Shown here: piece after piece, positions 8,717 to 37,997 of the stretch
Position numbering within the stretch: the stretch's first letter is position 1
Layout: each line of letters starts with the position of its first letter
DNA from: Lachnospiraceae bacterium
GTDB taxonomy: Bacteria > Bacillota > Clostridia > Lachnospirales > Lachnospiraceae
Assembly (NCBI GenBank): GCA_022510615.1
Contig: JAFLTC010000009.1
Coordinates: 1-64,000, forward strand
Direction of reading: 5' to 3'
DNA length: 64,000 bases
Made by a program: the position numbers and the translations under genes
Notes under the pieces: generated by a model
What the model saw: only the letters and a program-made list of their open reading frames with translations
Told to the model about the DNA's origin: nothing
Databases searched by the model: none

Positions 8717-8750
8717 GTCTTTCACATCCTTTAATTATCAGTACATTATT

Positions 8751-10679: not shown

Positions 10680-10680
10680 T

Positions 10681-11400
10681 TTACTGTCCTCCTGATACTT
10701 CTATCAGACTTCCTGTAACATATTGTGAACGCTCCGATAGCAAGAAATCAACCAGCATACAGACTTGTTCATAGGGAATTCTTCCTAACGGCTGTATGTC
10801 CTTTAACAGTTCCCCCTCTGTGTCCGATACCTGCCATGGTATTACTTCATCCTTCATTGTTTTCTCAAGATATCCCGGTAACACAGCATTGACCCGGAGC
10901 CTCCTTTTTACATTCTCCTTCGCCATCGTTTTTACAAAGGAGTTTAATGCCGCCTTACTGGCGGAGTATAGGCTCATTCCTGCCGGATGACTTTTAGACG
11001 CCATAGAAGATATCACGACAATAGAGGCACCATCCTGAGAATATTTCTTTTTGCAGAAATGTTTTCCCAATTCCAAAAAGGAGAAACTATTTACATTCAT
11101 TACTCTTCTTGCCATTTCCGGCTCACTGGTTTTAATTAAAAATCCCTCATTCAGTCCGGCACAATGAATCAGCCCATCCATCTTTACGGATATATTTTCA
11201 AATACCTTTCCAATCTGCTCCGGAACTTCTAAATCTACGACAAAGCTCTTGGCCCTCTCGCCTAATTCATGGGAGAGCTCCTCCAATTTCTCTTTGTTTC
11301 TTCCCAGAAGAATAACATTATCTCCCCTGTCCGCCAGAAATCTGGCCACATATTCTCCCAGTCCGGATGTCGCACCGGTGATGAGATAATTACCGATCAT
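10681..11400 (-). CDS. SDR-family oxidoreductase (FabG-like), copy 1
   Basis: 239 residues with the classical SDR layout: NADP-binding TGATSGLG at the start, the catalytic SS in VVISSMAS, YSASK, and the C-terminal GSLIEVSGGQ. Members reduce ketones, including 3-ketoacyl-ACP. It is one of three related SDRs in this operon, beside KAS III-like and ACP genes, so reduction of a short 3-ketoacyl-ACP is the likely job. Start and stop overlap or abut the neighbouring genes. Confidence 0.85.
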   Translation of the reverse strand: MIGNYLITGATSGLGEYVARFLADRGDNVILLGRNKEKLEELSHELGERAKSFVVDLEVPEQIGKVFENISVKMDGLIHCAGLNEGFLIKTSEPEMARRVMNVNSFSFLELGKHFCKKKYSQDGASIVVISSMASKSHPAGMSLYSASKAALNSFVKTMAKENVKRRLRVNAVLPGYLEKTMKDEVIPWQVSDTEGELLKDIQPLGRIPYEQVCMLVDFLLSERSQYVTGSLIEVSGGQ

Positions 11401-21481: not shown

Positions 21482-23014
21482 TTATTCTTCGATATAGTCT
21501 TTCTTAAGCTGCTTTCTGTCAATCTTACCATTGTCATTGTATGGAAATTCCTCCAGCACCACATATCGTTCAGGAACCATATACTTTGGCAATATCCCTA
21601 TCAGATATTTTCTTATATTCGTTTCCTCAATCGCTGTATCGGCATTGCAGAAAGCGTTAATTACATGATTCTTTTCATCATATATGCAACAGGCATTCAG
21701 GATCTCATCCATGCTCAGAATTGCCGTTTCAATCTCACCTAATTCAATTCGATAGCCCATATGCTTAATCTGAAAGTCTTTTCTTCCATCAAACATAATC
21801 TCACCATAATCATTGTAATGAGCCAAATCACCGGTACGGTATATCTTCTCCTCATAATGAGTATTTAACGGATTCTGCACAAAAGCTTCCGCTGTCTTTT
21901 CCGGATTATTGTAGTATCCCACGGAAATACATGTTCCTCTCACACACAATTCTCCCATCCTATCCTTCTCTGTAATTAACTGGTCATTGTCATCCAACAG
22001 AAGGATTTGTGTGTTTTTACATGCCCTGCCAATCGGCAGCGGTTCTTCATCCTGAAACTCCCTGTCCACTCTGTAATAAGTACATACATCGGTAATTTCT
22101 GTAGGACCGTATAAATTTGCATAAATGGCATCCGGTAATACCCTTCGCCAATAATTTAAATGCCGGTTCGGCATCACCTCGCCGCAGAACAGAACCTTCT
22201 TTACACAGGAACAGTCTACCCTTTCCAGCAAACCGCTGTTTGCCACTCCAATGAGAGCAGAGGGAACCCAGAAAATAAAGTTAATTTCATTCGAGCGTAA
22301 ATATTCCAGCAAAGCCGCAGTAAAAGCAAAATGGGATTCCGGAACAATAAATAACTGCGCACCCTTACTCATACATAGATAGATGTCCAAAATGGAGTTG
22401 TCAAAATAAAAGGGAGCCTGATTGGCAATCCTCTCCTGTTCCGTAATATCAAATTCGGCTCCTGCCCAGTCTATGTAATCGATAATGCTTCTGTGGGTTA
22501 TAGCGACTCCCTTAGGAACCCCGGTCGAGCCGGAGGTAAAAAACACATAAGCCAAATCCGTATCAATTGCATTTTCAAGATATTTTTCTGCATTTGAAAT
22601 CTTTTCAGAAAAATCAATATCCTCAACAAAAATCATCTGCTCCTTATCAATACCATTGTCCAACAATTTTTTCGCACTTGCCTGATCGGTAATGATAAGT
22701 TGTGGCAGAAGACACTGAATAATTGAATTTACCTTATCAAAGGGAAACTTCACATCCGTAGGCGTGTAATAATTTCCACTGTAAAGTATTCCGGCAAAAG
22801 AAATCAAAGTCATTGCCGATTTTGGTAAATACACAAGTATAGGAATTTGTCTGTCAGTCTTCTTTTCCTGAATTGCCTTTGCGATGCAAAGTGCCATATT
22901 CTTCCACTGGGTAAATGTTACCTCTGTTTTGGCATCTGTCAAAGCAGTCTTGTCCGGAAATGTAGCAACGGAATCTTCTAAATAACACAGTACCGAATTC
23001 TTCAATGGTGTCAC
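21482..23014 (-). CDS. Amino-acid adenylation enzyme (DltA-like)
   Basis: 510 residues with the order of NRPS adenylation motifs: FFTSGSTGVPKG (A3), NLYGPTEITD (A5), YRTGDLAHYNDYGEI (A7), DFQIKHMGYRIELGEIE (A8) and NGKIDRKQL (A10 Lys). Size and motifs resemble D-alanine-D-alanyl carrier protein ligase. It follows ACP 5 by 59 bases, mirroring DltA with DltC. It should activate an amino acid or similar acid and load ACP 5. The start is GTG 23014 or a TTG three codons later, which has the better-placed AAGGGG. Confidence 0.85.
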   Translation of the reverse strand: MTPLKNSVLCYLEDSVATFPDKTALTDAKTEVTFTQWKNMALCIAKAIQEKKTDRQIPILVYLPKSAMTLISFAGILYSGNYYTPTDVKFPFDKVNSIIQCLLPQLIITDQASAKKLLDNGIDKEQMIFVEDIDFSEKISNAEKYLENAIDTDLAYVFFTSGSTGVPKGVAITHRSIIDYIDWAGAEFDITEQERIANQAPFYFDNSILDIYLCMSKGAQLFIVPESHFAFTAALLEYLRSNEINFIFWVPSALIGVANSGLLERVDCSCVKKVLFCGEVMPNRHLNYWRRVLPDAIYANLYGPTEITDVCTYYRVDREFQDEEPLPIGRACKNTQILLLDDNDQLITEKDRMGELCVRGTCISVGYYNNPEKTAEAFVQNPLNTHYEEKIYRTGDLAHYNDYGEIMFDGRKDFQIKHMGYRIELGEIETAILSMDEILNACCIYDEKNHVINAFCNADTAIEETNIRKYLIGILPKYMVPERYVVLEEFPYNDNGKIDRKQLKKDYIEE

Positions 23015-23508: not shown

Positions 23509-26500
23509 CTACCTCCCTGCAACATCAAAATCCATCACAAAACCTGCCTTGATAATTAGTGTACCGGATCCTCTGCCGTATACATTGCATTCCATCAAAA
23601 GCCGGCTGCCTTCCTTTATTTCCCAGCCGGACAGATAGCCGGCAATCTCTCCCGGCTTCTGCATATCGATAATAAAGGTTACCGGCGTGCGGACCATGGC
23701 ATTTTCCTCCTGTCCCCACAGGACCGCCGGATATTCATAAAATACCGTAACATCCAGTCGGAATTTCCTCGTATCCATCTCCAGCACAGACCACATCTCC
23801 TGCTCTGCCTTTTGAATCTCCTTTCGCTCCTCCAGTGTTATGGCATTATAGTCCGCTACCACCTGAATGGCAGGGAGCGACATCTGTTCTGTGCGAAAAA
23901 TAAAGTCCTCCCTGATTTCAAAGGAGGTCGGGGGCTCACCATCAGATGCCCCTTTGATATGCAGCAAATCCGCATTTCGCACAATCCATGCCTTTGGGAT
24001 AATCTGGTTGCAGGAATGCAGTGGCAGATTCGATATAGAAAAATTCAGTTCCACTTTGTCGCCCAGCCGGATTCCCGATATCGGCTCCGGCGGTTTGAAA
24101 TCTGCTCCCAGTAAGTTCAACTCTTCCGTCAGGTCATCCTGGTTCAGGATGCTGAAAGCAAGCTGTTCTTCTTCGTCTTCCCACTTCATTCCGAGTTTTA
24201 TGTCAATGGAATTTGTGTGTTTTATCAATTCATTTTCCTTCCGTTCGTTTTGCCCCATCCCAGAAACAGGTGGGCCATATCTGACATAATCCCCTGCGAA
24301 CTTTTCCATTCTCTTATAGGCAGTCTTCAAATCTGTCTCTAGCTGATCCATAATTTCTGCACGCTCCAAGCTGTAACGTGCCAGAATATCAAACTTGTTT
24401 TCCTGATTTGTAGATATCTTTACTTCCCGCCCAGAATAATCCAGTTCTAGATACAATGTATCCTGTAACACGGCATTCACTGCCATCTTTCCCCTCCATT
24501 TGTACCTCAATTCTTTTTTTTCCGTCCTGATTTCCTTCCGGCTGATCTCTTCTTCTTTCGTCACTCCTTCCTGCCAGAGCAGCTCCGGCGGAAGCGGACA
24601 CTCCTTTTTCGGGTAGGGAATGCTGGCATCTGACATAAGGTTAATGGTTTTTCCATCACTGGCAACCGGCTGATATAGTTTCAGCCACTGGGATTTTTCG
24701 TATCCATCCAGTCCCTCCTCGATATCATATTCCAGATAAGGAAATTGTATATCCCAGCTGCGGCACTCCCCACTGTCCTCCTTCAAAAACAGACAGAATA
24801 CGCCTTCTTTGTCCCCGGCTTCCAGCTTGGAGACTGTTAAAATCTGGTCAGAAAAAATCTGAGGCATCAGACGATATTTTTCCGTCTTCCATTCGCTGTG
24901 AAATGCGGCAATTACTCCGGTATCATAAGCCAGTGCCAGATTCTCAGAGAACCTGTCCTTCACAAGCTTTTCTATCTTTTTCAGAGCTTCTTTTGTCACC
25001 TCCGCCCGCACCGGTTTTACCCTGTGGCTAAGTTCTTCCGCAATATCGGCCTTATGATTTACTAACCTTTCTACTATTTCCGGACATTCCTTTGCCCCCA
25101 TACAGATCTGCGGACCTGTCAGGAACCTCTCGATATCCTCTAAAAACTGCCTTTCCCATACATTGGCGTCCCCGTTGGCAAAAGGCAGCACCGCATAAAA
25201 TTCCGGCATATGTATTTTCCGGGAATCTATCTCGTGCTCATATGGCTGAATCCGTATCCCCGCCAGCATGTCTGCACGGAGCAGATACACATCATTTTGA
25301 TTGCCATAAGCCAGCCTGTAGTCTTCCAATGAAAAGGTCTCTGCCATATTATCTGCCGGTAGCACAGTTGAATCCGCACACATTACTATTTCTTTCTCTT
25401 TTCCCTTTTCCGGTCCGGACTCTGTACGCTCTACCCTCAGTGTCACTTCTAGTTTCTGAATCGGCTCTCCGCCATTCTCTTCCGGACTGAACGACAGATA
25501 CAGTTCTACCGGTTTCGTTTCCTGACGATTGTTTTCTAAATCGGTATACCGGGAATGAATATAGGTAAGGAGCAGAGTCTTATCCACCTCCACAAAAGAG
25601 CCTGCAGACAGAGAATGCTGTACCGATATATGAACATCTTCACACTGATACTGATAGTAAGCCGTTATCAGGAGATTTTTTTCTGCTTGAAGTTTATCTT
25701 CCTCCACCAGTTCCTCACTGACCTTTGCCTCGCAGCAAATTTTCAGGATATCCCTCCCCTCCTTTTTTTCAAAACGGTAGCTTAGCAGGGTATTCGGTAA
25801 TTCATGTACCCCGGTCAAAAAGTCATTATATCTTCCCCGTATTTTTATCTGCTCCTGCATCCGGCAATCCAGACGGTTTCCTAATACATCTCGGAAAAAG
25901 AGCTTCAAATCGGTCTCACAGCCCACTGCCGCATAGGGACTCTGTCCGTACATTTTCCATATAGGAATCACCATCTGGTACTTTAATTTGCCGCCTGTGT
26001 CATCGCTTTCCACCACCGGCATAACCGATGCGGACTCATGTGAGTGCGTCTCGTAGCCGAGAAGTTGGAACAGATGCTTAAATATATCCTCTTCATCGTA
26101 ATCTCTCTCCACCACATAGCCCACACAGCCCGCCGGCAGCATTGGTGCCATAACCGTTTTACCCTCCTGATAAATCGTAACTCCGGATAGATTTTCCGGC
26201 AGATACACCGCATTGCACATCATTTCTCCCCCGGATTTCGCCACAAAAGTCAGGCTTCCATAACCCTCCCCGTCAAAAACATTATCCGGAATATTGGCAT
26301 TGGGACAGTAGAGCCAGTACCCGCCGCCAATTACCGTGCACTCCCATAGGAGCTTTACAAATTGATTTGACTGCTTCCTCATATTGGCGATAAACTCCCA
26401 ATTTTCAACCTCACTGTCAAGAGCGTTTTTGACATATTTCGTTTCTTTTGACAGGTTTGTTTTTACAAGGAACACCTCTTTCATGTTTAGTAAATACAGG

Positions 26501-29500
26501 CCATCCTGACTGTGTTTCAGAGGGGATGAATGGCAGTACAGAGACAAATTCAAAGAATCCTGTCCGATCAGAGAATAGAGAGTTTCTACCTGAGAGGCTC
26601 CTGCACCCTCTACCCAGAATACATCCTTTTCCTTCCGGTACAGCCGGATGTCTATCACTACCGCGGGTTCCAGACTGGAAATTTCTGAGTCACCTTTTCT
26701 GGCATGAAGTATTTTCTTATAATCTGCCACCTCTGTTCCACAGCCCGCCGGCAGCATACCAAGATAGGCCCAATCCTTATCATTGAATAACGTCCATCCT
26801 CCTGTCATGGTAAAGGTCTGGAGCTGCTCTTCAAAAAACGGCATATTCTGAACCCTTGGAACGTCCTCTTTGATATCCTTCGGTAAGATGGCCTGAAGCT
26901 GTTCCCTGGTAAAATCTGCCTCTGCATTTTGTAAGGTAATCCATTCCGCATCTGTATCAAAGGCAATGTGACATACATCATTCTCCTCATCAAAAACCGG
27001 CAGCGACATCTGCTGGAGAGACAGTTCATACATCGGCAGCATATGCTCATTTTCCCCAGACATCGTTTCAGGCATACGGCTTCCCTGTAAGAAAACCCGG
27101 GAAATCATGGAGCCCATTTCCTTTACATTACCTTCCCCTAAAATATAGGCTTCCAGTTCTTCATAAGGGATTTGTGCCGGGGCAGGCAGCGTAACTTCCT
27201 GTTCTCCGTCTAAAGTGACATATTCTCCGTCCAGTAGTGCCTCGGTAAGCATCTCCGTTCCATAGAGCTCACAGAGTTCCTTTACCGTTCCCTTTTTGTC
27301 CGGCCCATAATTCTGTATGTCAAATTCCGCCAGCGGCCGGAGTATCGGCTGATCCCAGAGGACACAGTTTTCCGGCGCCCCGGAGTTACCCGTACTACCC
27401 GGCTGAAAATCCGGGCAGACATATCGGAAAAGACCACCTACCGTCCCACGTGGTATCCGGGTGTATTCGTCAAACAGCGATAATGTATCCGGAATTTGTT
27501 CCCCGGAAGGATTGCCTTTAAGTTTTTCCTTAAACGCCTCAAATGTCATAACTGTCCCGTCACAATGCACTCCATCTAAGACAGCACACTCCTTTGCCAA
27601 AAGTACCACGGTGTCCCCCGGCAGGGCACGCCGGTCTCTGCCACCGGGAAGCTGAAGCTTCGCTTCCGATATCTCCCGGCACTCCCAATCCATGTCAATA
27701 TCGTCATTGGTTTTCAATATTTCTTCCACATAAGGTGCGTAGAGAACCTCCGGCTGATGCAGGCGTACATAAAACAACGCTGCCGCCTGTTCCATCGTCA
27801 GTTTCGCTTTCCGGTTATCAAATTGATAACCCTCCAGAGACACCCGGATACTTTCGTCTAACAGTCCTTCCTTTTTCGATACGCCCTGCCAGAGTTGTTC
27901 CGGCATAAATCCGTATGTCTCCACAATGCTTTTCAGACTGGTCTTTTCCGGCAGTGTGACGGAATATTTCGGCAGCTTCTTCACCTGTAGCTTCAGTTTC
28001 GGATTTCCGGCTATAATCTGCTCTGCGGTCACTCCGTACTCCCCCATGGCATCTACGAGATTCTGACAGGTGACAGAGAAAGCCTGATAGCACCTCTCAA
28101 CCCGCGCCTTTAATTCCTCTGCCAGAATGCGAAACCAGTCTGCCAGTATCGCCCCACAGAACGGGACTCTCTTATTTTGATTCTCCGACAGTCCCTCCGG
28201 TGCATAGGAAGGGTCTGCATTGAGCCTTTCAAAATACTTGGACAATCCCTGCATGTATTCCTCATCCACCACCTTGTCCGTAAAATCCACAGAAAACTCT
28301 CCCACCTTGCAGGACAGCCTTGGAAGGATAGGAAATATGACCGCTTCCTTTTCTTCCTTGTTTTGGTCCGTAGTTTCCAATGTAATCCGCAGCTTCGTAT
28401 TTTTTTCCAGCAGGTTTTCCACATAGGCATAATCAATATATTTGAAATCATTGATTCCTCCCATCGTTTGATCTGCACATAGGGTTCTTAGAAGCAGAGT
28501 CAGTACCTTTGTAAAATCCTCGTGGTGCAAAAACATCAGAAAAGTAAAACCGTATTGATACGTGCCGTCTTTTTCTTTTCCGGTGACCGAACACATAGGG
28601 GCAAGGATCAGGGACATCTCATATTTCTCCTCCTTTGTCAGGACATCCGAAAAGCATATCTCACTTTGTAAGTTCGCTGCCATCTGCTGCCTGTTATTTG
28701 CTGCCAGTTGCCACGGAGTAGCCGAATTAGAACCAAAGCTGAATTCTGCCCGCTGTTTAAAATGAAAGGAAAAGGAAATCTTAAAAAATAATACTTTCGC
28801 ATAGGCACTTAAAGAAAGCTCCAGGTCTACCGCCACTGACGACTTACGATAGCTCTCCAGCTTCAACTTGCAAAACGCCGATATCCGGGCAGACGCCCCT
28901 ACCGAGATCACCTTCAAATCCGCGCTTAAAAATAATGTCCCCACCACTCCCACGGTTGCCGAAGCCTGATAATACATACCATCCGGCTTACTTTTATCCG
29001 TAGGCTGGAAGATGCCGAAAATTCCCTCTAAAATACCAACGACCATCAGCGATACACCACCCTGCACCACTCCCAGATGAAAGCTCCGGGATAAGCCGAC
29101 GGACAGACCGATGCCGATTTTTAATACCGTTGAAAAGGAACCATTCACAACAGCCGGCACCGAATTCACCGCATCCCCGTAAAACTCTCCCAGATAGATG
29201 CCGCCGCGACCGGAATAAATCCCCATCGTGATGCCAAAAGAGCGGGTAAAATCCTGATTATGCGGGAATCCCAAATCCAGATAAAAGCTGCCATTGGTAT
29301 AGATCTCCACCAGAATTTCTCCCAGATAAATCGTAATGGCTCCCAGATCAAATTTTGAATATTTAGACGGAAGGGTCGTCTGACAATGGAGCATACCTAC
29401 CGCATCACTGATTTTTTTATAATATAAATCCAGTTTCAGATCATTAAAATTTTTCAGAACAGATTTTTCCGATGCCTGTACCTGAAGATTTGCTCCATAT

Positions 29501-32061
29501 ATCTTTGGGTCATAGAATAAAAGCTTGATCCGGAACATATCTGCCATCTCAAAATCCGATGCCACAATCCAGCCTGTCTCCCCGTATGTCATGACATCCT
29601 TTCGGGAGGTCATGGCACCTTTCCGGGAGGTTGACAATTTCTTCCTGACATCATCAAAAATTTCTTTTAAGGTCGCCCCCTCCGGTGACACTGACAAATG
29701 ATGCCCCAGACCAAAATAGTAGAGATGAAAGCCCTTCTGGTTTGTCGCCAGATTATTATTCGGATTTCCCTTCTCGGCATCCCAGCTGAGGGGATTGTCC
29801 GTATCAAATGTTTGTCCCATACAGTCTCCTAACAGGATATACTGAACAGACCCCTTACCGCTCCCTTGGCCTTTTTCATACTTGACTCCGATATCGGTAA
29901 TGTTCATAACACCGGCAATGCTTTTTTCCACATGATATAAAAGCGTGGCAGTGTGGTCGGACAGATTCAAAATGAACGTACAGTCACTGAGGGAAATTTT
30001 ATTAATAATATCCCACGGCGCCGGCAGGGTAACTCTTGCATTAGGATTTATGAGCCGGACAAAGGCGAGCACGACATCTCCCAGCGTGACACCCCCTATG
30101 GAGAAGGTCAGGGTTTTCTCCTTCTTATCATTGAGCTGATAGATACCCTGCAGATATTTATCCCAGAGCTGAACTCGAAACAGGTATTTCTTTTCCTCCT
30201 GAAGGATGTTATCTGCCTGCACTAAAAGTTTAAAAACCCCCACCTGCAAATATGCGGCCAGCGACAGTTCCGTGACGGAATCCTGCCTGTACAGCCGCAG
30301 TCGTCCTCCGGTGGTAATCTTTTGATCCAGTATGTCAAACCACACCTGACAGGTTGCATAGACCCGGAGTTCTTTTGAACCCGTGTCATAATATAATGAC
30401 AGATCATACAGTTTAATTCCCGTTTGAGCCTGCGTTCCTTCCTCTTTTCCAATAAAGGCCTTCACAAGAGCAATTAAATCCGGCTCTCCATAGGCCAGAC
30501 CTCCTTGAAAAACCCAGTTTTTTTCCGCATAGTCGGCAGACAAAGAAAGGGCAAATTTTTTCTTTTGTCCATCCGCCGAATCATGTTCAAATCCCAGCAT
30601 TCCGAAAATACCAAAAGACATACCGCCTCCCGTATATTCGAGTTCAGCCGTAATATTATCTAACAGAAATTTTACCTTATCATTAATTTTTAAATCCAGA
30701 ACATCGGAAACCTCAAATCCCAGAGTCAGACTCCTCTGCCTGCCATCGACTCCTATATCGACAGAGGCCAGCACATTTCCGGCATCATGACTATCCTTCT
30801 TCGCCCAGAAATCCGGCAATGTCACCTTACAGTCCTCAGCCAGATCCTGAAAGGTTACCTCCTTTTCCTCTTCTAATTCCAGATGTCCGGTAAATTGTAA
30901 ATCCGGATAATAGGCTGTCATCTCCCCTGTCAGTACTCTATTACCAAGCTTCGCCTGAATACTCGCCGCCAAAAACAGCGTAAGGATCGGCTTCTGACCC
31001 CACAGACTTTCTTCCCATTCTGCCTGTACATGGTTCAGGGTGAGATTAGGAACAAAAAGTTCCATTGGCTTTTTCATGACAAAAATTCCCCGGATATGTT
31101 GTAGTTTTCCCCCATGAAAGCTCTCCTTTGACCTTCTGTCATAAATCACATCCAGCTGCCGAAGACCAAAGCCGGAAAGAGGAACCCCGTCGGGTATAAG
31201 CATATCACTTGTGGGCAGTTGAAACACCTCTCCCAAAATCTTTGTAATATCATTTAGAACCAGGGGTGATTCTGGTGGTTCTATCATTGCTGTATATTGC
31301 ATGACCTCCCTGCCGGTAAATAAATCCATGGTAAAGGATAGTGTTTTCTCTATCCCCTTTATCCGAAATTCACATTTCATATAGGCCGTCGTGACCGGGG
31401 TTTCATCATACCACCACGCATTCTTTATGGTAGCGATAACAAGATTTCCCGACCCTGTTCCCATAGGCAGTTCCACCGGCTGTGCCAGCAAAAAATTAAT
31501 GGTCAGCAGAGGATACGAATCCGGATTCGGAGAAAGTGTTCCCCGTATCGGGATGTTTTTCCCGGAAAGCAGCCAGAAAAGCACCGACCACCGTTTATTT
31601 CCCTTCTCCGGTGGAGTAGAAACCCCGTTTATGTGGATTTTATCGTCACCACCTTTGTATCCCAGCACAGGATTTACGAGAGAAAAGCCCTCAAAGAGAG
31701 TTGTCTCCGGCTCGTAATTCGGAACATGCGGTGCCAGTACCCCAAACATTTCCGGAAAAGTGCTCTGACATATGGTTTCCAGCCTAATCTGGTATCCAAT
31801 CTGTCCTTTATCGCGCTGTTCCATCTCCATAGTCACTTTAGCTTCCCTTGACTGGACAGTTCCTGTCAGCCGCCCGATTTTTCCCGTTACACGCAAAGAA
31901 GCACCTGTGAGGGTAATTTCGCACTCCTCGATCTGGATTTTTTCCAACCTGAAAGTACGGAAAAAATCAACATAAATTTTCTCCCCAAAGGAGGCATCCA
32001 ATGATAAGACTTTCTGGCTCAATCTTTCCTGTAACAGTTCATTCAGTTTTTGTAAAGTCAT
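23509..32061 (-). CDS. Giant beta-rich protein of unknown function (2850 aa)
   Basis: The start is the ATG at 32061, which forms an ATGA overlap with the stop of the hydrolase gene and has GAGAAGG upstream; an ATG 10 codons earlier is less likely. No signal peptide or clear membrane helix is seen. Residues 1-1130 are dominated by alternating beta strands. A Gly-rich amphipathic stretch near 960-1130 (GLSVGLSRSFHLGVVQGGV; LSADLKVISVGASARISAF) looks like a large barrel or solenoid. Around 1400-1600 are weak LysM-like pieces (TSLKSIVETYGFMPEQLW). The motif MLPAGC occurs twice (near 1767 and 1973). The C-terminal 600 residues include helical parts. It recalls uncharacterised giant proteins of the DUF6603 kind, but that is from memory and unproven. 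Confidence 0.85.
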   Translation of the reverse strand: MTLQKLNELLQERLSQKVLSLDASFGEKIYVDFFRTFRLEKIQIEECEITLTGASLRVTGKIGRLTGTVQSREAKVTMEMEQRDKGQIGYQIRLETICQSTFPEMFGVLAPHVPNYEPETTLFEGFSLVNPVLGYKGGDDKIHINGVSTPPEKGNKRWSVLFWLLSGKNIPIRGTLSPNPDSYPLLTINFLLAQPVELPMGTGSGNLVIATIKNAWWYDETPVTTAYMKCEFRIKGIEKTLSFTMDLFTGREVMQYTAMIEPPESPLVLNDITKILGEVFQLPTSDMLIPDGVPLSGFGLRQLDVIYDRRSKESFHGGKLQHIRGIFVMKKPMELFVPNLTLNHVQAEWEESLWGQKPILTLFLAASIQAKLGNRVLTGEMTAYYPDLQFTGHLELEEEKEVTFQDLAEDCKVTLPDFWAKKDSHDAGNVLASVDIGVDGRQRSLTLGFEVSDVLDLKINDKVKFLLDNITAELEYTGGGMSFGIFGMLGFEHDSADGQKKKFALSLSADYAEKNWVFQGGLAYGEPDLIALVKAFIGKEEGTQAQTGIKLYDLSLYYDTGSKELRVYATCQVWFDILDQKITTGGRLRLYRQDSVTELSLAAYLQVGVFKLLVQADNILQEEKKYLFRVQLWDKYLQGIYQLNDKKEKTLTFSIGGVTLGDVVLAFVRLINPNARVTLPAPWDIINKISLSDCTFILNLSDHTATLLYHVEKSIAGVMNITDIGVKYEKGQGSGKGSVQYILLGDCMGQTFDTDNPLSWDAEKGNPNNNLATNQKGFHLYYFGLGHHLSVSPEGATLKEIFDDVRKKLSTSRKGAMTSRKDVMTYGETGWIVASDFEMADMFRIKLLFYDPKIYGANLQVQASEKSVLKNFNDLKLDLYYKKISDAVGMLHCQTTLPSKYSKFDLGAITIYLGEILVEIYTNGSFYLDLGFPHNQDFTRSFGITMGIYSGRGGIYLGEFYGDAVNSVPAVVNGSFSTVLKIGIGLSVGLSRSFHLGVVQGGVSLMVVGILEGIFGIFQPTDKSKPDGMYYQASATVGVVGTLFLSADLKVISVGASARISAFCKLKLESYRKSSVAVDLELSLSAYAKVLFFKISFSFHFKQRAEFSFGSNSATPWQLAANNRQQMAANLQSEICFSDVLTKEEKYEMSLILAPMCSVTGKEKDGTYQYGFTFLMFLHHEDFTKVLTLLLRTLCADQTMGGINDFKYIDYAYVENLLEKNTKLRITLETTDQNKEEKEAVIFPILPRLSCKVGEFSVDFTDKVVDEEYMQGLSKYFERLNADPSYAPEGLSENQNKRVPFCGAILADWFRILAEELKARVERCYQAFSVTCQNLVDAMGEYGVTAEQIIAGNPKLKLQVKKLPKYSVTLPEKTSLKSIVETYGFMPEQLWQGVSKKEGLLDESIRVSLEGYQFDNRKAKLTMEQAAALFYVRLHQPEVLYAPYVEEILKTNDDIDMDWECREISEAKLQLPGGRDRRALPGDTVVLLAKECAVLDGVHCDGTVMTFEAFKEKLKGNPSGEQIPDTLSLFDEYTRIPRGTVGGLFRYVCPDFQPGSTGNSGAPENCVLWDQPILRPLAEFDIQNYGPDKKGTVKELCELYGTEMLTEALLDGEYVTLDGEQEVTLPAPAQIPYEELEAYILGEGNVKEMGSMISRVFLQGSRMPETMSGENEHMLPMYELSLQQMSLPVFDEENDVCHIAFDTDAEWITLQNAEADFTREQLQAILPKDIKEDVPRVQNMPFFEEQLQTFTMTGGWTLFNDKDWAYLGMLPAGCGTEVADYKKILHARKGDSEISSLEPAVVIDIRLYRKEKDVFWVEGAGASQVETLYSLIGQDSLNLSLYCHSSPLKHSQDGLYLLNMKEVFLVKTNLSKETKYVKNALDSEVENWEFIANMRKQSNQFVKLLWECTVIGGGYWLYCPNANIPDNVFDGEGYGSLTFVAKSGGEMMCNAVYLPENLSGVTIYQEGKTVMAPMLPAGCVGYVVERDYDEEDIFKHLFQLLGYETHSHESASVMPVVESDDTGGKLKYQMVIPIWKMYGQSPYAAVGCETDLKLFFRDVLGNRLDCRMQEQIKIRGRYNDFLTGVHELPNTLLSYRFEKKEGRDILKICCEAKVSEELVEEDKLQAEKNLLITAYYQYQCEDVHISVQHSLSAGSFVEVDKTLLLTYIHSRYTDLENNRQETKPVELYLSFSPEENGGEPIQKLEVTLRVERTESGPEKGKEKEIVMCADSTVLPADNMAETFSLEDYRLAYGNQNDVYLLRADMLAGIRIQPYEHEIDSRKIHMPEFYAVLPFANGDANVWERQFLEDIERFLTGPQICMGAKECPEIVERLVNHKADIAEELSHRVKPVRAEVTKEALKKIEKLVKDRFSENLALAYDTGVIAAFHSEWKTEKYRLMPQIFSDQILTVSKLEAGDKEGVFCLFLKEDSGECRSWDIQFPYLEYDIEEGLDGYEKSQWLKLYQPVASDGKTINLMSDASIPYPKKECPLPPELLWQEGVTKEEEISRKEIRTEKKELRYKWRGKMAVNAVLQDTLYLELDYSGREVKISTNQENKFDILARYSLERAEIMDQLETDLKTAYKRMEKFAGDYVRYGPPVSGMGQNERKENELIKHTNSIDIKLGMKWEDEEEQLAFSILNQDDLTEELNLLGADFKPPEPISGIRLGDKVELNFSISNLPLHSCNQIIPKAWIVRNADLLHIKGASDGEPPTSFEIREDFIFRTEQMSLPAIQVVADYNAITLEERKEIQKAEQEMWSVLEMDTRKFRLDVTVFYEYPAVLWGQEENAMVRTPVTFIIDMQKPGEIAGYLSGWEIKEGSRLLMECNVYGRGSGTLIIKAGFVMDFDVAGR

Positions 32062-33176
32062 ACGCACATACCTTCTCTTGAAACAATGCATTTATCTGGC
32101 GGAATAGAATTGATTGGCATTCTCGGCATTCCTGCCCCTGGGGCTTCCGTTTCAGGTGAGTCATTGTCATCCTCAGCTGCCGGAGCTTCCGGTTCAGATA
32201 AACCAATGCCATCCCTAGCTCCTGAAATCAAATATGGAGCCTTAGGAAAATCCAGAGTATTGTAAATGTTACTTTCGGTGTCATGATGTTCCGCACCGCC
32301 GTACACGCTAACCGAATGTTTTTCTTGTCCTCCTTTAACATATTTTTCTGTTTTTTCCACAAAATCCAGACTTGGATGTTTATATCCTGAGCATTCCCCC
32401 GCACTAATAATCATTTTTTGCGGCTTATGTTTATTTAAAAATTTCAAATACGGTTGGTTCTCATCCCTATCTAACACTCTTTTTTTTATGCATTTATAAG
32501 TAAATATGTCATTACCGGAACCATGATGAGGAGCCAGCATTAGGAGCAATTCTCGTCCATTTATATGTTCTGCAAGCTTCTCTTCTATTCCATTTAACGC
32601 ACTAAAGGTGTGTATCGTGGCATCTCCGGGAAAGAGAAAATATGGTTTTCCCTCCGCAACCTCGTCTACATAACAATAAATAATCCCTCTGGTATTTTTT
32701 GCGACACCGCTCGTGCTACCGACTCTGGGATTTTGTATACCAATAGGGTATCCTGTTGTATCGGGACTTATAAAAAACCTGGAATGATAAGGATAAACCT
32801 TGGTATAAGTTTCCTGCATATTGTGTATGAATTTTCGATATTTCTTACCTGCCCCATAATTTCCTATAATAGCAGTAAGGTCAATATTAGATACATTAAC
32901 TTCCCTTTTGTATTCTTCCAATAAATCCTTTAAATGGTCCCAATGATCAGTATCCTGATGCGATATTACAATCAAATCGGGTCCCTTAACCTTTACAAGC
33001 AAGTTTATTGCCTCTTTTTTTATCGCTGCCCAATCATACTTCCCACAATGTTGAACCTTACCACAGTCGAATATCGCACAAAATGGTCCTCCACATAATC
33101 CTGATTTACCCTTATCGATCAATATGTTAAACAACCCCTGCCCCACATTATAGGTATATACTTCCACATTAGTCAT
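32058..33176 (-). CDS. Metallo-beta-lactamase-fold hydrolase (ComEC-like domain)
   Basis: 372 residues. The metal site is seen as VISHQDTDHWDH (near 71-80, an HxDxDH variant of HxHxDH), FLFPGDA (near 185) and LAPHHGSGND (near 214), as in soluble ComEC/Rec2-type MBL hydrolases. Some of these cleave nucleic acids or nucleotides. The last 45 residues are a Pro/Glu/Ala-rich tail (EAPAAEDDND). The start overlaps the stop of the 965-aa gene by 8 bases and the stop overlaps the giant gene by 4, so the three are translationally coupled. The substrate is unknown. Confidence 0.8.
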   Translation of the reverse strand: MTNVEVYTYNVGQGLFNILIDKGKSGLCGGPFCAIFDCGKVQHCGKYDWAAIKKEAINLLVKVKGPDLIVISHQDTDHWDHLKDLLEEYKREVNVSNIDLTAIIGNYGAGKKYRKFIHNMQETYTKVYPYHSRFFISPDTTGYPIGIQNPRVGSTSGVAKNTRGIIYCYVDEVAEGKPYFLFPGDATIHTFSALNGIEEKLAEHINGRELLLMLAPHHGSGNDIFTYKCIKKRVLDRDENQPYLKFLNKHKPQKMIISAGECSGYKHPSLDFVEKTEKYVKGGQEKHSVSVYGGAEHHDTESNIYNTLDFPKAPYLISGARDGIGLSEPEAPAAEDDNDSPETEAPGAGMPRMPINSIPPDKCIVSREGMCV

Positions 33177-36066
33177 TCTCTCCTACCTCCTCCTCTTCCG
33201 CATCATAGGCACCAAACCAGGCGATTTTCCCGTTTTCTCCCAGAATACGCACCTCCACTCCCTGAGGCGGCAGTGATATCTTGAAAACCTTCAGGGAAAG
33301 ACCATGGAGAAGCAGATACACTCCGCCTTTATTCTCCTTTTCCATACTCATACCGGTTATCCCGGCTGTCATAATCCCCTGTAGGAAAAAATCACCGCCG
33401 AAAATACCGCCGGTCTTTGCGCCTACATAACAACTAGTTCCACTCCATGCCGCTATGATTTCCAGAGACAGCATTTCATTTTTCCCCAACTGCCCCGATG
33501 GATTTAAAGGCAGTTGCCACACCAGCCCCATCCAGCTTTCGCCCAGCGTTCCCTGAGAGATAATAGCCTCAAAGGAAGCATACCCCATAGAATCCGGTGT
33601 CGTATTTTGATCTCCGAAAATCATCTGTGCCGACTGTATGCCAAAGGCATGAACAAAAGAATTCTCCCGAATCTCCGCCCTTTCTGCCGCCAGCTTAAGC
33701 TTCGCCATGTCAATCTCATATTGTTCTTCCGGTTTCTTAGTGAGTATCAACCCTTCGAACCCAAGGTTTTCGTAGGAGAACAAATCAAACTCCTCACAGA
33801 TCATAAAGGAGAGCACACCCTGTAGTTGAAAGGAAAAGGTATCGGTTCCGACAGACAAAATAACATCCTGCACCACAATCTTCTGGAGAACGGATACACC
33901 GGCGCTATATTCGATGGGCTGCTCCAGAAGAAACTGATAAACCTCCTGACCGTTTACTTTCTCCATCCCTCCCACCAGAACAAGGTTGTTTCCTTGTGAC
34001 TGTTCTACCGGGTGTACCGCCGAACCAAACAGATGATACGGGGTAAGTTCGGAATGACTCTGAAAGCGCTGCACAAGAGAATTCTCAATCTGAACAACCA
34101 TATCTCGGGTGCAAAAGTAAAACGGTTTATCCCCTTCCGTATAGACCGGCTTCCCCTCACAAAGCAAAAGAGCATTCACTTTGGATTTTGCCACGGAAAT
34201 GCCCTCCCCCGATACAGACACCTTGCCGTTTTCCACAGCGGCATACAGCACGTTAAGTTTCCCTCCGTCTATGGAGCGAAATACCGTCGCAAGCTCCGGA
34301 GATACTTTTTCCTCATCCACCTCACCCTGAGCTCCCAGAAGAAAAATTCCCTGAAATTCTTTTTTATCTAAAACCTCTGTCAGGGGCTCATAGCCCGTTT
34401 TAACATTCCCCTTCTCGTCATAGGCGTATTCTATTAAATAACGCAGTTGACTGCTCCCCTTCTCCTCTAAGACAGAGCGTAGGGAAACGTTTTTCGTATA
34501 CTTTAATATGAACAGACTGTTTTCGTCGTTCCATGACTCTTGAGAAAACAAAATCTTCCAGCCATCAATGAGAAAATTCAGTTCAATGGGGTTATCACAC
34601 AAATCCACAAATTCCCCTTTGGTGGCTGCTATCAAAAGACAGTCGGTCTGCTGAAGAGCCTGTCTGGCAGAGAAGCCCGGCTGGTACAGTCGAATGTCCG
34701 GTAACTGTTTTTCCTGTCCCTTTGCTTCACCGGTCTGGGCAATTCCCACCCAGTTCCAGTGCCCGCTTTCCGGCTGTACTCCAAGACACATACCGCTGGG
34801 TGTTAAAAGTACCACTTCCTTTTCATCACTCTTTGGCGCTGACTGTAATCCCTCTGTAAGAATGGCGTATCGTTTCCCGGACAGAAGTCTCTCTGCCTCA
34901 TTGATATCGGGAGTATCTGTCCCGGACAGGATACCTCTCCATGGCAGTAGGGGAAATGCCGGTGTCTTTTCTTTAAATTTAGCGATTTTGGGCACGAAAG
35001 AAACCATCCTGCCATCCTTCACCTGAAAAAACGGCATGGAAACCGGAGCGGAATAATAAGTACCCCGGACTGCTATCCAGGGAGCCGTCACCACGGTTTT
35101 ATCCATCTGATTCAGCACTGCACTCTGTTGTGCCTGAAAATCTATTATCAGTTCAGTGGTACTGTCCATAAAATATTCCGTTCCTGCCAATCCCGGCATA
35201 AGTTGCATCTGCTCTGGTTTTCCCGGAACACCTGCCAGAAATCCGCCTTCCACACCCAGATACCATCCCTGCCCCGCTGCAGCATAATTACCTCCCTCAC
35301 TAGTCAGTACTTCCGCTGTTTTTTCAAAGACTAACACAGCCCCTTCCAAAGACCGGACAGGCAATGGACTTCCCTGCGGGGTGGTAAAAAAACTATTCCA
35401 TTCACAGACCGGCAGGGAAAAATAAGTACTTTCCTTATCCGTCATGGCCGCCGGTGCAATCTGGGCTTTTAACGTTACTGTCTGCACCGGCTCCAGCAAA
35501 GATGCCTGAAATCGTCCCGTGAAATTTTTCTCTTTCCCATTTTCTGTATCTCCCGGCAGATTCATCAGATATTTCATACCGACATCGAGAGAAGAAAAGT
35601 TTTCCTTTCCGGTCTCAAAAGAAAATGTCAGTTTTCCCATGCTGTCCTGTAAATCCATGGTAATCTTTCCATCCACCGGTTGAAAAGATATCTCTTCCAC
35701 GCCAAAAATACCGGAAAAGGATAAAAAATTACCCTTTTCTTCCAGAAACTCTTTGAAAGAGATCCAATACTTTCCCGCCCTGAGTGTTAAATTATGTTCG
35801 GAGGCAGCAATATTTTGCCAAGACTCCATTTTTTCTTGCGGATTTTCGATCCAGAGCAGTCTGGCAGAGGCTCTATCCAAAAACCGTTCCACTTCTATGA
35901 CAAAGTCCTCGCCCGGTTGAAAGGTTTGCGGATAAAACACCAGGCATGTGCTGTCATTCCATATGCTCTGTATTTCCTTCGCCTCCTTTTTACTTCCCAG
36001 ACAAAATCCCTGAGCAGTCCGGTAAAAAATATATTTTCCCCGATAGATACTCGTTAGATTTTCCAT
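33169..36066 (-). CDS. 965-aa beta-rich protein, partner of the giant protein
   Basis: I do not recognise a named family. The protein has no signal peptide. It reads as a long run of short beta strands, with Gly/Ser turns (GSAVHPVEQSQGNNLVLVGGMEKV) and a Gly-rich C-terminus (GAKTGGIFGGDFFLQGIMTAGITGMS). Local style resembles the first third of the giant protein, which suggests that both belong to one assembly. The ATG has GGGAGAAGGG upstream. It is coupled to the hydrolase gene. Role unknown. Confidence 0.8.
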   Translation of the reverse strand: MENLTSIYRGKYIFYRTAQGFCLGSKKEAKEIQSIWNDSTCLVFYPQTFQPGEDFVIEVERFLDRASARLLWIENPQEKMESWQNIAASEHNLTLRAGKYWISFKEFLEEKGNFLSFSGIFGVEEISFQPVDGKITMDLQDSMGKLTFSFETGKENFSSLDVGMKYLMNLPGDTENGKEKNFTGRFQASLLEPVQTVTLKAQIAPAAMTDKESTYFSLPVCEWNSFFTTPQGSPLPVRSLEGAVLVFEKTAEVLTSEGGNYAAAGQGWYLGVEGGFLAGVPGKPEQMQLMPGLAGTEYFMDSTTELIIDFQAQQSAVLNQMDKTVVTAPWIAVRGTYYSAPVSMPFFQVKDGRMVSFVPKIAKFKEKTPAFPLLPWRGILSGTDTPDINEAERLLSGKRYAILTEGLQSAPKSDEKEVVLLTPSGMCLGVQPESGHWNWVGIAQTGEAKGQEKQLPDIRLYQPGFSARQALQQTDCLLIAATKGEFVDLCDNPIELNFLIDGWKILFSQESWNDENSLFILKYTKNVSLRSVLEEKGSSQLRYLIEYAYDEKGNVKTGYEPLTEVLDKKEFQGIFLLGAQGEVDEEKVSPELATVFRSIDGGKLNVLYAAVENGKVSVSGEGISVAKSKVNALLLCEGKPVYTEGDKPFYFCTRDMVVQIENSLVQRFQSHSELTPYHLFGSAVHPVEQSQGNNLVLVGGMEKVNGQEVYQFLLEQPIEYSAGVSVLQKIVVQDVILSVGTDTFSFQLQGVLSFMICEEFDLFSYENLGFEGLILTKKPEEQYEIDMAKLKLAAERAEIRENSFVHAFGIQSAQMIFGDQNTTPDSMGYASFEAIISQGTLGESWMGLVWQLPLNPSGQLGKNEMLSLEIIAAWSGTSCYVGAKTGGIFGGDFFLQGIMTAGITGMSMEKENKGGVYLLLHGLSLKVFKISLPPQGVEVRILGENGKIAWFGAYDAEEEEVGEND

Positions 36067-36093: not shown

Positions 36094-36249
36094 TTATCTG
36101 CAAAGTTCAATGCAATCTGCACTCGTAAGTAAAATCTGTTCCAGATTCTCCGCCTCCATAAAATATACCGGCATTTTCTGACCGTACGGGTCAGAAACAA
36201 AAAAATCTGGCAGAGTCAGATGACCTCTGCCAGATAATGGTTGTTTCAC
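36094..36249 (-). CDS. Possible 51-aa ORF ahead of the giant-protein operon
   Basis: A GTG at 36249 (AGGA four bases upstream) opens 51 codons: VKQPLSGRGHLTLPDFFVSD, then PYGQKMPVYFMEAENLEQIL and a tail ending DCIELCR. Composition is protein-like with no rare-residue clusters. The first codons cover the terminator hairpin at 36206-36234, so the frame could instead be fortuitous, or only the downstream 26-codon part from ATG 36174 may be used. A leader peptide or small first gene of the operon are both possible. Confidence 0.35.
   Translation of the reverse strand: MKQPLSGRGHLTLPDFFVSDPYGQKMPVYFMEAENLEQILLTSADCIELCR
36199..36234 (-). terminator. Intrinsic terminator after the 524-aa secreted protein gene
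   Basis: A perfect 10-bp stem, TCTGGCAGAG (36206-36215) with CTCTGCCAGA (36225-36234), has a 9-base loop. On the minus strand it is followed by seven T (36199-36205). It lies 50 bases after the stop at 36285. A second, 8-bp stem (TTCTGACC/GGTCAGAA, 36176-36196) follows directly. Confidence 0.8.
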
Positions 36250-36284: not shown

Positions 36285-37853
36285 TTACTTACTAATCCTG
36301 ACTTTTTTCGCGCTGGAATATTTTCCATACACTATATTTTCTTTTGTATCAATTCCGTAAGCACGTACCTTAACATAACATGCTTTTTTCTTCTTAAGCG
36401 CTTTCAGTATTACTGTGTTTTTCTCTGTGGTAATCGTTTTACTATTCTTGTTCAAACTCTTTTTCGTGCCATAAAGAACTTCATATCCGCTGGCATTACT
36501 GAGTTTTTTGAATGTTAGCTTTGCTTTTTTACCCTTCTTGTTTTTTAATGAGGTAATGGTTACCTTTCCAATCTTAATCTTTTTCCCTGTCTGTGCGACG
36601 CTGCTTTTTGATTTCCCGGTCTTTACGGGAGCCGTCACCGTTACATTGCTGTCTTTTTTTTCGGCTTGCTCTACAACACTCTCGCCGCCTTTTTTTCCGG
36701 GTTCCGCCGCAACACTCTCGCTGTCTTTGGTCCCGGATTCTTCTGCGATGCTCTCATTACCACTCTTGCTTCCGGTATCCGCATCATTGCTTGTAGTGGT
36801 AGATTTCCCCTTGTCTTTTATGGAAATGGTAGCTACCGCAGAAGCTGTTACCAATTTACTGGTAGGGAAAGTAGCTTTAATATCTACCGTATACTTACCC
36901 GGATTTACATAGGTTGGTGGAACTGTCGAATCCTCCCATGTATTACTCGATTCGTTGAGGTAATGATAACTCAGGGAGTATTCATCCTCCGCCATACCGG
37001 CAACAGAAACCTGCGAGGCATCAATTCCGTGGCTCTCACCATCGTAATCAGCAGAAACCGTAAACCTTCCACCATCCAACAAACTCTGGTCCACTCTGAT
37101 TTCTCTGGAGAGAATCCATGTTCTTACCGGCTCCGCTTCCACATAATAAAACTCGTCAGCGTCATCGTCCTTGAACAATTCATAAACCGTGACATCATAG
37201 CCGCCGATATCCTTAATCATACCGTCCTGACAAACCAGTGTTTTTTCCTGTTCGGTATAGATTTTAAATCTCATAACGGATGGCATTTCTGCCGTTGTCT
37301 TATATGGTTTCCCGTTCTTGTAAAGAATCGGTGGCTCCGGCAGTGACCAGACATAGCCGCCGGTATAAATTTTGCTTACGCCCCTCGCCACCAGCTTGTA
37401 TTCCTCCGGAGATTGATAGGCTACTGAAAATTCCTGTGCCTTCGAATACTCTCTCTCTCCGGTAGACGTCTTGCGGAAAGCATAGACCGTATATCCTAAA
37501 CCAAAAGGAAGTACATAGTCCTCATACCGGTTTTCAAATACACCGGAGGTGAGGGTCAGCTCTCCGTTTTTCATAATGCGCGCGCCCGCAGAGGTACCAT
37601 CCACATCTATAACCAGATAGTATTCTCCATCCGTGCCGCCGGAGGCCTTAAAGGTTACTTTATCACCGGGCTTGACTTTGCCATCTGTAAGACCTGTGAT
37701 TTCAAGAGTAATCGGTGTATCCACCTCTTTCGTAATCCCAGCCTCTTCCGGCGTTCCCTTATTATTCACGCTTGCCTGTGCCGGTGCTGCTGCCACCAAA
37801 GCCATAACCAGTGCCAACGCCAGAAAACGTTTTATTTGCCTGCCCTGTTTCAT
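36285..37853 (-). CDS. Secreted protein with Lys-rich fibronectin-like C-terminus
   Basis: About 522 residues. I use the ATG at 37853, where AGGAGG is 7 bases upstream; the ATG at 37859 is only one base from it. Residues 1-28 form a signal peptide ending near AQA. Residues 40-350 look like two or three immunoglobulin-like beta domains (EITGLTDGKVKPGDKVTFKA). Residues 360-420 are a low-complexity Ser/Glu/Lys linker. The C-terminal 95 residues (TFKKLSNASGYEVLYGTKKS) match a fibronectin III-like fold very rich in Lys. No sortase signal is present; the basic C-terminus may hold the protein to the wall. Function unknown. Confidence 0.75.
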   Translation of the reverse strand: MKQGRQIKRFLALALVMALVAAAPAQASVNNKGTPEEAGITKEVDTPITLEITGLTDGKVKPGDKVTFKASGGTDGEYYLVIDVDGTSAGARIMKNGELTLTSGVFENRYEDYVLPFGLGYTVYAFRKTSTGEREYSKAQEFSVAYQSPEEYKLVARGVSKIYTGGYVWSLPEPPILYKNGKPYKTTAEMPSVMRFKIYTEQEKTLVCQDGMIKDIGGYDVTVYELFKDDDADEFYYVEAEPVRTWILSREIRVDQSLLDGGRFTVSADYDGESHGIDASQVSVAGMAEDEYSLSYHYLNESSNTWEDSTVPPTYVNPGKYTVDIKATFPTSKLVTASAVATISIKDKGKSTTTSNDADTGSKSGNESIAEESGTKDSESVAAEPGKKGGESVVEQAEKKDSNVTVTAPVKTGKSKSSVAQTGKKIKIGKVTITSLKNKKGKKAKLTFKKLSNASGYEVLYGTKKSLNKNSKTITTEKNTVILKALKKKKACYVKVRAYGIDTKENIVYGKYSSAKKVRISK

Positions 37854-37997
37854 AGGCATTCCTCCTTTATTAGTCAGTCAATGATATTTAATTTTATATA
37901 GTTACTATTAGTATATATTACTTACTATAGGAAGTCAAACTTTTCTCCACCAGAAATCATGATGCTGTTGACACATACAAAAGCATAACTGTCACAC

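Follow-up and report, generated by a model that had tools for sequence, protein, structure and literature searches.

We analysed a 64,000-nucleotide stretch of DNA from a Lachnospiraceae bacterium (positions 1 to 64,000 of contig JAFLTC010000009.1, assembly GCA_022510615.1; hereafter the window) that contains a unit of three overlapping genes, encoding a protein of 965 amino acids (aa), a 372-aa hydrolase of the metallo-beta-lactamase (MBL) fold and a giant protein of 2850 aa. Comparison with relatives indicated that the two large proteins are the constant part of this unit and that the MBL hydrolase is one of several exchangeable enzymes. The preliminary description of this DNA had presented the three genes as a fixed system, which our analysis did not bear out; besides the exchange of the enzyme, many relatives carry one or two extra genes that are missing at the window locus. 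The unit is apparently a member of a scattered family of many phyla that is undescribed in the libraries and literature searched. In that literature, which covered subscription papers sparsely, we found no description of the operon, and 'undescribed' is bound to that scope. The preliminary description had named a protein cage or shell, a defence system and a secreted machine, and all three stay candidates. We tentatively favour the idea that the unit encodes a modular, extracytoplasmic, toxin-like complex, in which the constant pair carries a swappable nuclease-type enzyme. The three genes are:

33169..36066, minus strand: gene of the 965-aa protein ('PART'), the conserved partner (open reading frame (ORF) call; complete homologues have 720-1375 aa).
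32058..33176, minus strand: gene of the 372-aa hydrolase with a ComEC-type MBL fold, which is the exchangeable enzyme in this copy (ORF, ComEC profile match, catalytic residues intact).
23509..32061, minus strand: gene of the 2850-aa giant protein (ORF call; relatives recovered by homology searches).

All three genes are intact, and together they span 12.5 kb. Direct reading of the junctions revealed an 8-base overlap, ATGACTAA, between the genes of the 965-aa protein and the MBL hydrolase, preceded by a Shine-Dalgarno stretch, GGAGGAGGTAGGAG, and a 4-base overlap, ATGA, between the MBL and giant genes; the ORFs and these readings thus agree with the coupling described earlier. The longest ORF of the giant (23509-32091) would yield 2860 aa. 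The ATG at 32061, which gives 2850 aa and the ATGA overlap, appears to be the best start, better than the in-frame one upstream.

One core-motif scan for relatives ([IV]YTNG[DNS]Fx[ILV]D) covered the genome contigs of 84,980 GTDB species. The scan confirmed 213 encoding stretches, and the best 80 of these 213, which were kept, fall in 11 phyla. The 93 loci gathered were reduced to 91 by dropping two duplicates (L052, identical to L007, and the G157 copy, identical to L027); five later loci (G282, G326, G824, G910 and G1185), all with the pair, stand outside the counts. Gene calls placed a homologue of the 965-aa protein upstream of the giant and on its strand in 84 of the 91 loci, and a six-frame search added 2. 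This amounts to 86 of the 86 loci with enough upstream DNA, the remaining five (L040, L048, L055, L073 and L090) being at contig ends with no room for the gene. Because homologous pairs occur in the same order in all 86, the pairing is not due to chance. Genes were called by longest ORF, which hid some of them: the 965-aa genes of L029, L041 and G326 were seen only in six frames. Giants with both ends present have a median length of 3500 aa (shortest 707, longest 4680), and some are split into two ORFs.

The giant was present in 4 of 250 genomes of the window's taxonomic family, the window's own included, and in 1 of 398 genomes of the window's phylum, which is the window's own. It was also present in 4 of 149 Pseudomonas genomes and in 4 of 395 genomes of the phylum of locus L033, counting the central query genome in each case. 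The giant is present once in 15 of the 16 genomes checked and twice in the other, and it was also found in eight plasmid records. A search of 2.9 million viral contigs gave a single relative, with a DNA invertase nearby, and we discarded phages as the general source of the unit. A tree of 90 core sequences, built by a quick method with the partial L013 excluded, mixes phyla (for example, Streptomyces and Embleya are found among Pseudomonadota), which speaks for horizontal transfer.

Across the 91 loci, the enzyme is a ComEC-type MBL in 43, an EEP-fold enzyme in 22, a 'GHQ' domain in 6, an HNH enzyme in 1 (E 8e-4, just below its cut-off) and a trypsin-like protease in 1; none was seen in 18. 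Two of the labels were assigned by hand: L008 (MBL, BLAST E 1e-4) and L071 (EEP, clustering with L068). MBL, EEP and HNH are predicted to be nuclease-type folds of unrelated origin. All 15 EEP sequences that were aligned, out of the 22, retain the catalytic residues (E; G-D and N of GDFN; S and H of SDH). Most enzyme genes lie between the two large genes; in L012, L026, L057, L068 and L071 the enzyme gene is upstream of both, and six loci, the split L024 excluded, carry a tandem array of two or three MBL genes. The GHQ domain is encoded by a separate gene in 2 loci and is fused to, or lies within, the N-terminal part of the giant in 4. Its reading as a glycosyltransferase, which came from motif recall only, was unsupported by Pfam at E 0.05 (L097) or by the PDB, and a PDB match to an oligosaccharyltransferase subunit (E 0.47) was read as chance.

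On the tree, 17 changes of enzyme type are needed, compared with a mean of 41.5 for shuffled labels; without three truncated loci the number is 14. The starred branches of the tree force at least four changes for MBL and at least five for EEP. We conclude from these values that the enzyme type is inherited for stretches and occasionally replaced. A swap is also seen within one genus, since the four Pseudomonas positives comprise one MBL and three EEP loci. Of the 18 loci with no enzyme seen, 3 are truncated at contig ends and 12 belong to a single group (11 cyanobacterial, 1 Saprospiraceae), in 10 of which one or two small proteins occupy the enzyme position. In the cyanobacterial loci L060, L075, L077, L079, L080, L082, L083, L085 and L088, one or two small conserved proteins (~130-200 aa) replace the enzyme.

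The MBL enzyme of the window had been described as ComEC-like with an intact metal site, and both points were borne out. As a single sequence, the 372-aa protein gave weak matches to ComEC_Rec2 (17 bits) and 6A-MBL (19.3 bits, against a cut-off of 220) and, in the PADLOC table, which comes without cut-offs, to LmuA (E 2.9e-4) and RTasMBL (E 3.2e-3). A profile of 39 MBL sequences matched solved ComEC at E 2.6e-23 and also the phosphorylcholine esterase CbpE at E 2.5e-10. The metal-site residues were located at:

32943..32960, minus strand: MBL metal-site motif HQDTDH, aa 73-78 (H73, D77 and H78 in 38 of 39 aligned sequences).
32520..32528, minus strand: MBL motif HHG, aa 217-219 (H217 and H218 in 39 of 39; G219 in 38 of 39).

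D185 is likewise kept in all 39, and the sole exception to H73, D77 and H78 is L024, whose N-terminal part is a separate ORF. No protein of the three-gene unit scored above the cut-off of a known anti-phage model in PADLOC or NCBIfam. As to the earlier concern that the MBL gene might occur without the giants in most genomes, a single-sequence search of 250 same-family genomes returned only the window's own gene and one marginal match (9.8e-6); the search is weak and insensitive, because it also missed the known MBL of G157.

Extra parts in the relatives bear on where the unit acts. In at least 56 of the 93 loci, an extra protein whose C-terminal half is conserved is encoded upstream of the pair; such counts are lower bounds, as many loci stop short of the upstream genes. 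The N-terminal half of this protein contains FN3 (a 14-sequence profile matched fibronectin at E 1.6e-6) or Laminin_G_3. A hidden Markov model (HMM) detected a protein of the Hint/PT-HINT type at 17 of the 93 loci or in their flanks (one being a duplicate locus), and Pfam added Tistrella; the Hint protein of L036 begins with a signal-like stretch, as read by eye. LysM was detected by Pfam in 10 of 14 giants, and an iterated local HMM (i-E 0.05) gave 491 domain matches in 73 of 102 giant or giant-half sequences, single weak matches being unsure. A signal or lipoprotein peptide directly precedes the MBL domain in L076, L081, L084, L093 and L096, and a signal peptide directly precedes the EEP domain in L057, L068 and L071. 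Other signal-like matches were dropped, either as lying inside the domain (L054, L058 and L062) or as probable wrong starts (L027/G157 and L100). Cysteine accounts for 0.52% of residues in the giants versus 1.02% in flanking genes. Together, the export signals on the enzymes, the LysM, FN3 and lectin domains and the low cysteine content of giants other than the Clostridia type favour work outside the cytoplasm.

Judged by its sequence, the window copy is a reduced form, with no detectable LysM and neither an FN3-type protein nor a Hint gene at the locus. An FN3-type upstream protein was not found elsewhere in the window's genome either (2.1 Mb, 129 contigs, 88% complete). On another contig of this genome (C64; positions 8672-11223 of locus L103), the gene of a 548-aa Hint protein overlaps that of a 302-aa trypsin-like protease by 4 bases, with no giant in the 16-kb stretch analysed; the same type of protease lies beside the large-protein pair in Paenibacillus (L012). 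Further small genes were noted in some relatives. Mutually related proteins of 131-141 aa are encoded upstream of the 965-aa family in L093, L096, L076 and L091, in tandem in L093 and L096. In L057, L068 and L071, pairs of 132-163-aa proteins and the signal-peptide EEP enzyme are upstream of the pair and not between the large genes.

The two large proteins themselves have few recognisable parts. Neither scored above a cut-off in Pfam, and NCBIfam, PADLOC and PHROGs gave no match at all; the matches to a well-described family that the preliminary description had named as a refutation thus did not appear in these four libraries. Ig_VWDE and DUF3224 (Pfam E 0.07 and 0.15) are far below their cut-offs and were dropped. 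Sequence profiles of the 965-aa family, the giant core and the N-terminal 1148 aa of the giant had no match in the PDB, and the 965-aa family displayed no kinship with the giant core or with DUF6603. AlphaFold2 models of the 965-aa protein (mean pLDDT 87, pTM 0.76) and of giant residues 1-1148 (mean pLDDT 83.9, pTM 0.48) are beta-rich, in line with the long runs of beta strands described before, for the giant over the residues modelled. Within the giant we distinguished:

30049..31170, minus strand: aa 298-671, possibly about three repeats of about six strands plus a helix (AlphaFold2 secondary structure; the repeats are our interpretation).
28657..30228, minus strand: aa 612-1135, the most conserved core, used as the query for relatives, with remote DUF6603 kin (homology searches).
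28735..29142, minus strand: aa 974-1109, six long strands of 17-23 residues, mostly strongly amphipathic (AlphaFold2 model).
25462..27174, minus strand: aa 1630-2200, a second conserved block (iterated HMM; in 93 of 102 giant or giant-half sequences).

Structural matches over aa 778-1109 were barrel-like. With Foldseek, the top match of the giant model was ApoB100 (E 4e-5, prob 0.96), and LptD and VDAC were also listed; as modelled, the core resembles outer-membrane barrels and ApoB100 in general architecture only. For the block at aa 1630-2200, nothing in the PDB was better than E 0.63, a match to uricase that was read as chance.

An earlier hint at DUF6603 (PF20248, a Pfam family without assigned function) was supported as remote homology only, confined to the C-terminal part of the core. 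The C-terminal part of DUF6603 aligns with the C-terminal strands of the giant core (hhalign prob 86.5, 98 columns), a giant-core HMM matches the DUF6603 protein of L129 at 6.2e-5, and two sub-cut-off DUF6603 matches fall exactly on giant cores. However, the Pfam gathering cut-off of 27 bits was reached by no giant in 14 genomes (the best score, on the giant of a relative, was 15.8 bits), and DUF6603 had no match in the window giant and none among 14 giants at E 0.05. Like the giants, DUF6603 proteins lie beside other large unnamed proteins and enzyme genes. The five that we inspected (L128-L132) are 1088-1515 aa long, and no member of the 965-aa family is encoded in the 17-18 kb around each of them; a PhoD-like protein is encoded in L131 and a beta-1,3-glucanase-like protein in L129. 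These neighbourhoods are possibly a second, related system.

We prefer the toxin-like complex because a constant pair is combined with a swapped enzyme, because the enzymes belong to unrelated nuclease-type folds with intact catalytic residues, and because of the export signals on enzymes, the LysM, FN3, Laminin_G_3 and Hint domains, the low cysteine of the giants and their long, amphipathic, barrel-like strands. The 965-aa protein and the giant would form a constant scaffold bearing an exchangeable hydrolase, here the ComEC-type MBL nuclease, and the complex would act outside the cytoplasm of its producer as an antagonistic machine. In many relatives, the LysM repeats of the giant and the FN3 or lectin domains of the extra protein may bind cell-wall glycans or a cell surface. 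The large amphipathic beta sheets may shield or pass the cargo, and the enzyme would presumably cut nucleic acid or another phosphodiester. Put at its broadest, and with distinct doubt on our side, the proposal is of a new class of modular giant machines that extends over at least 11 phyla. Two proteins, one of them with a porin- or ApoB-like core, would form a scaffold of beta sheets, which in many members would bind cell-wall glycans through LysM arrays. These machines would deliver or shelter an interchangeable nuclease and stand outside the known toxin, secretion and defence families.

Several observations weigh against a toxin-like machine. As had been noted for the window, the large proteins lack a signal-like start: a simple hydropathy test on called starts found none on the giants (0 of 92) or on the 965-aa relatives (0 of 82), so that no export route is known, and the enzyme has an export signal in just 8 of 65 distinct MBL- or EEP-bearing loci. 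Neither Pfam nor the iterated HMM detected LysM in the window's giant, and the Clostridia-type giants of L021, L024, L027 (= G157), L047 and G179 have just 1-3 copies; giants of this type, the window's included, are cysteine-rich (1.0-2.2%). No recurrent small gene was seen downstream of the giant (ORFs of at least 100 aa), and hence no immunity candidate, or between the large genes outside cyanobacteria (ORFs of at least 120 aa), in a search blind to shorter or non-recurrent genes. The 12 grouped loci, 11 of them cyanobacterial, carry none of the enzymes searched for. Finally, antiviral systems that work inside the cell are known to use ComEC-like MBL nucleases as effectors (PMC12799240).

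Because of this last point, antiviral defence is the strongest rival. The large proteins would then sense infection inside the cell and in response free or switch on their effector, a nuclease or protease that can be interchanged; we regard this reading as unlikely. According to the same source (PMC12799240), Hachiman, AVAST, Lamassu and DRT have recurrently acquired ComEC-like MBL nucleases and trypsin-like proteases as effectors, and the weak matches of the window MBL to the 6A-MBL, LmuA and RTasMBL models point the same way. The patchy distribution (4 of 250 same-family genomes and 4 of 149 Pseudomonas genomes, starting genomes included), tree neighbours that cross phyla, one locus near type III-B CRISPR genes and the two large proteins without a signal-like start are also consistent with defence. 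Export signals on eight enzymes and the LysM, FN3 and lectin domains argue against this reading, and no NTPase or known sensor domain was detected in the scanned giants, 965-aa or upstream proteins. Furthermore, when 111 proteins from the flanks in 10 genomes were compared with PADLOC, none of the 25 families listed (of 63) matched more than two of these proteins. We therefore did not retain a defence-island location, although this flank test, which gave no recurrent system, lacked a control set. The locus near CRISPR genes is L014 (5069-28846) on an Azospirillum lipoferum plasmid, where insertion sequences lie between an EEP-bearing unit and the type III-B cmr genes.

There are two further explanations. 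One, which we hold to be improbable, is an envelope or lipid machine, in which the giant would bind lipids as a belt or serve as a conduit for them (in the manner of ApoB100, LptD or RBG proteins); the enzymes would be phosphodiesterases with lipids or wall polymers as substrates. The structural matches to ApoB100, LptD and VDAC, the amphipathic long strands with their possible six-strand-plus-helix repeats and the CbpE match of the MBL profile all suit such a machine. The other, to which we would give the least credence, is an assembly at the surface or in the matrix, where it would bind extracellular DNA and glycans and process them in the service of nutrition or biofilm structure, not of antagonism. 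The LysM, FN3, lectin and nuclease-type parts are in its favour, as are the glucanase-like and PhoD-like proteins in the related DUF6603 neighbourhoods. However, the enzyme type is exchanged on the tree, and exchange of this kind is more typical of conflict systems; beyond the parts already named, moreover, no gene recurs widely beside the unit in the clustered loci.

When the unit was compared with known systems, it could be assigned to none of them by their defining features; the remote DUF6603 link is to a family that itself has no assigned function. The MBL protein shares with the ComEC beta-lactamase-like nuclease domain the profile match and a metal motif of the same type. It differs in being a 372-aa protein without the membrane part of ComEC, with a signal peptide in some relatives. 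DNA cleavage by the ComEC nuclease is known (PMC12455585). The MBL nuclease-protease pairs of antiviral systems (PMC12799240) likewise have a ComEC-like MBL as an acquired, exchangeable effector; here, in contrast, no relative of the L012 protease was found in the MBL loci, and the partners are unrelated giants. Polymorphic toxin systems, as presented in PMC3482391, resemble our unit in having a variable enzyme beside a large constant protein and in the HINT domains, which occur in relatives and not in the window locus. They differ in that the enzyme of MBL, EEP and HNH loci is a separate gene and not a C-terminal domain, the sole fused enzyme-position domain being GHQ, which is fused N-terminally; in addition, no immunity gene was seen, and the scanned giants had no match to RHS or filamentous-haemagglutinin repeats. 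A large beta shell round an enzyme recalls, by analogy, the cocoon of Tc toxins and RHS proteins, for which there were weak Foldseek rows (Rhs, TcdA1 and TcdB-TccC; prob 0.02-0.16) and no sequence match.

The pair of large proteins takes up ~11-16 kb of coding DNA and is nevertheless found jointly, beside intact enzymes, in at least 11 phyla, so it probably does something worth this price. If the extracytoplasmic reading is true, the unit would represent a new bacterial way of carrying enzymes against other cells; if the defence reading is true, bacterial immunity would here rely on proteins as long as 4700 aa. The constant pair and swapped enzyme allow clean genetic tests in cultured Pseudomonas and Chitinophaga; complete operons are present in Pseudomonas putida NBRC 14671 (L036) and Chitinophaga eiseniae DSM 22224 (L033).

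The upstream boundary of the unit in the window was set by a structure that was read directly from the sequence and was not listed by an automated terminator scan with a loop limit of 8:

36199..36234, minus strand: intrinsic terminator, an inverted repeat (arms 36225-36234 and 36206-36215) followed by a T run.

This terminator is predicted to end the upstream gene of a 524-aa protein with a signal peptide (36285-37859), and thereby separates the three genes as a unit of their own. Given the intervening terminator, and with no relative of the 524-aa protein among the clustered upstream ORFs, this gene was rejected as a member of the unit. Downstream of the giant, at 21482-23014, the window encodes a 510-aa protein that we take to resemble an amino-acid adenylating enzyme.
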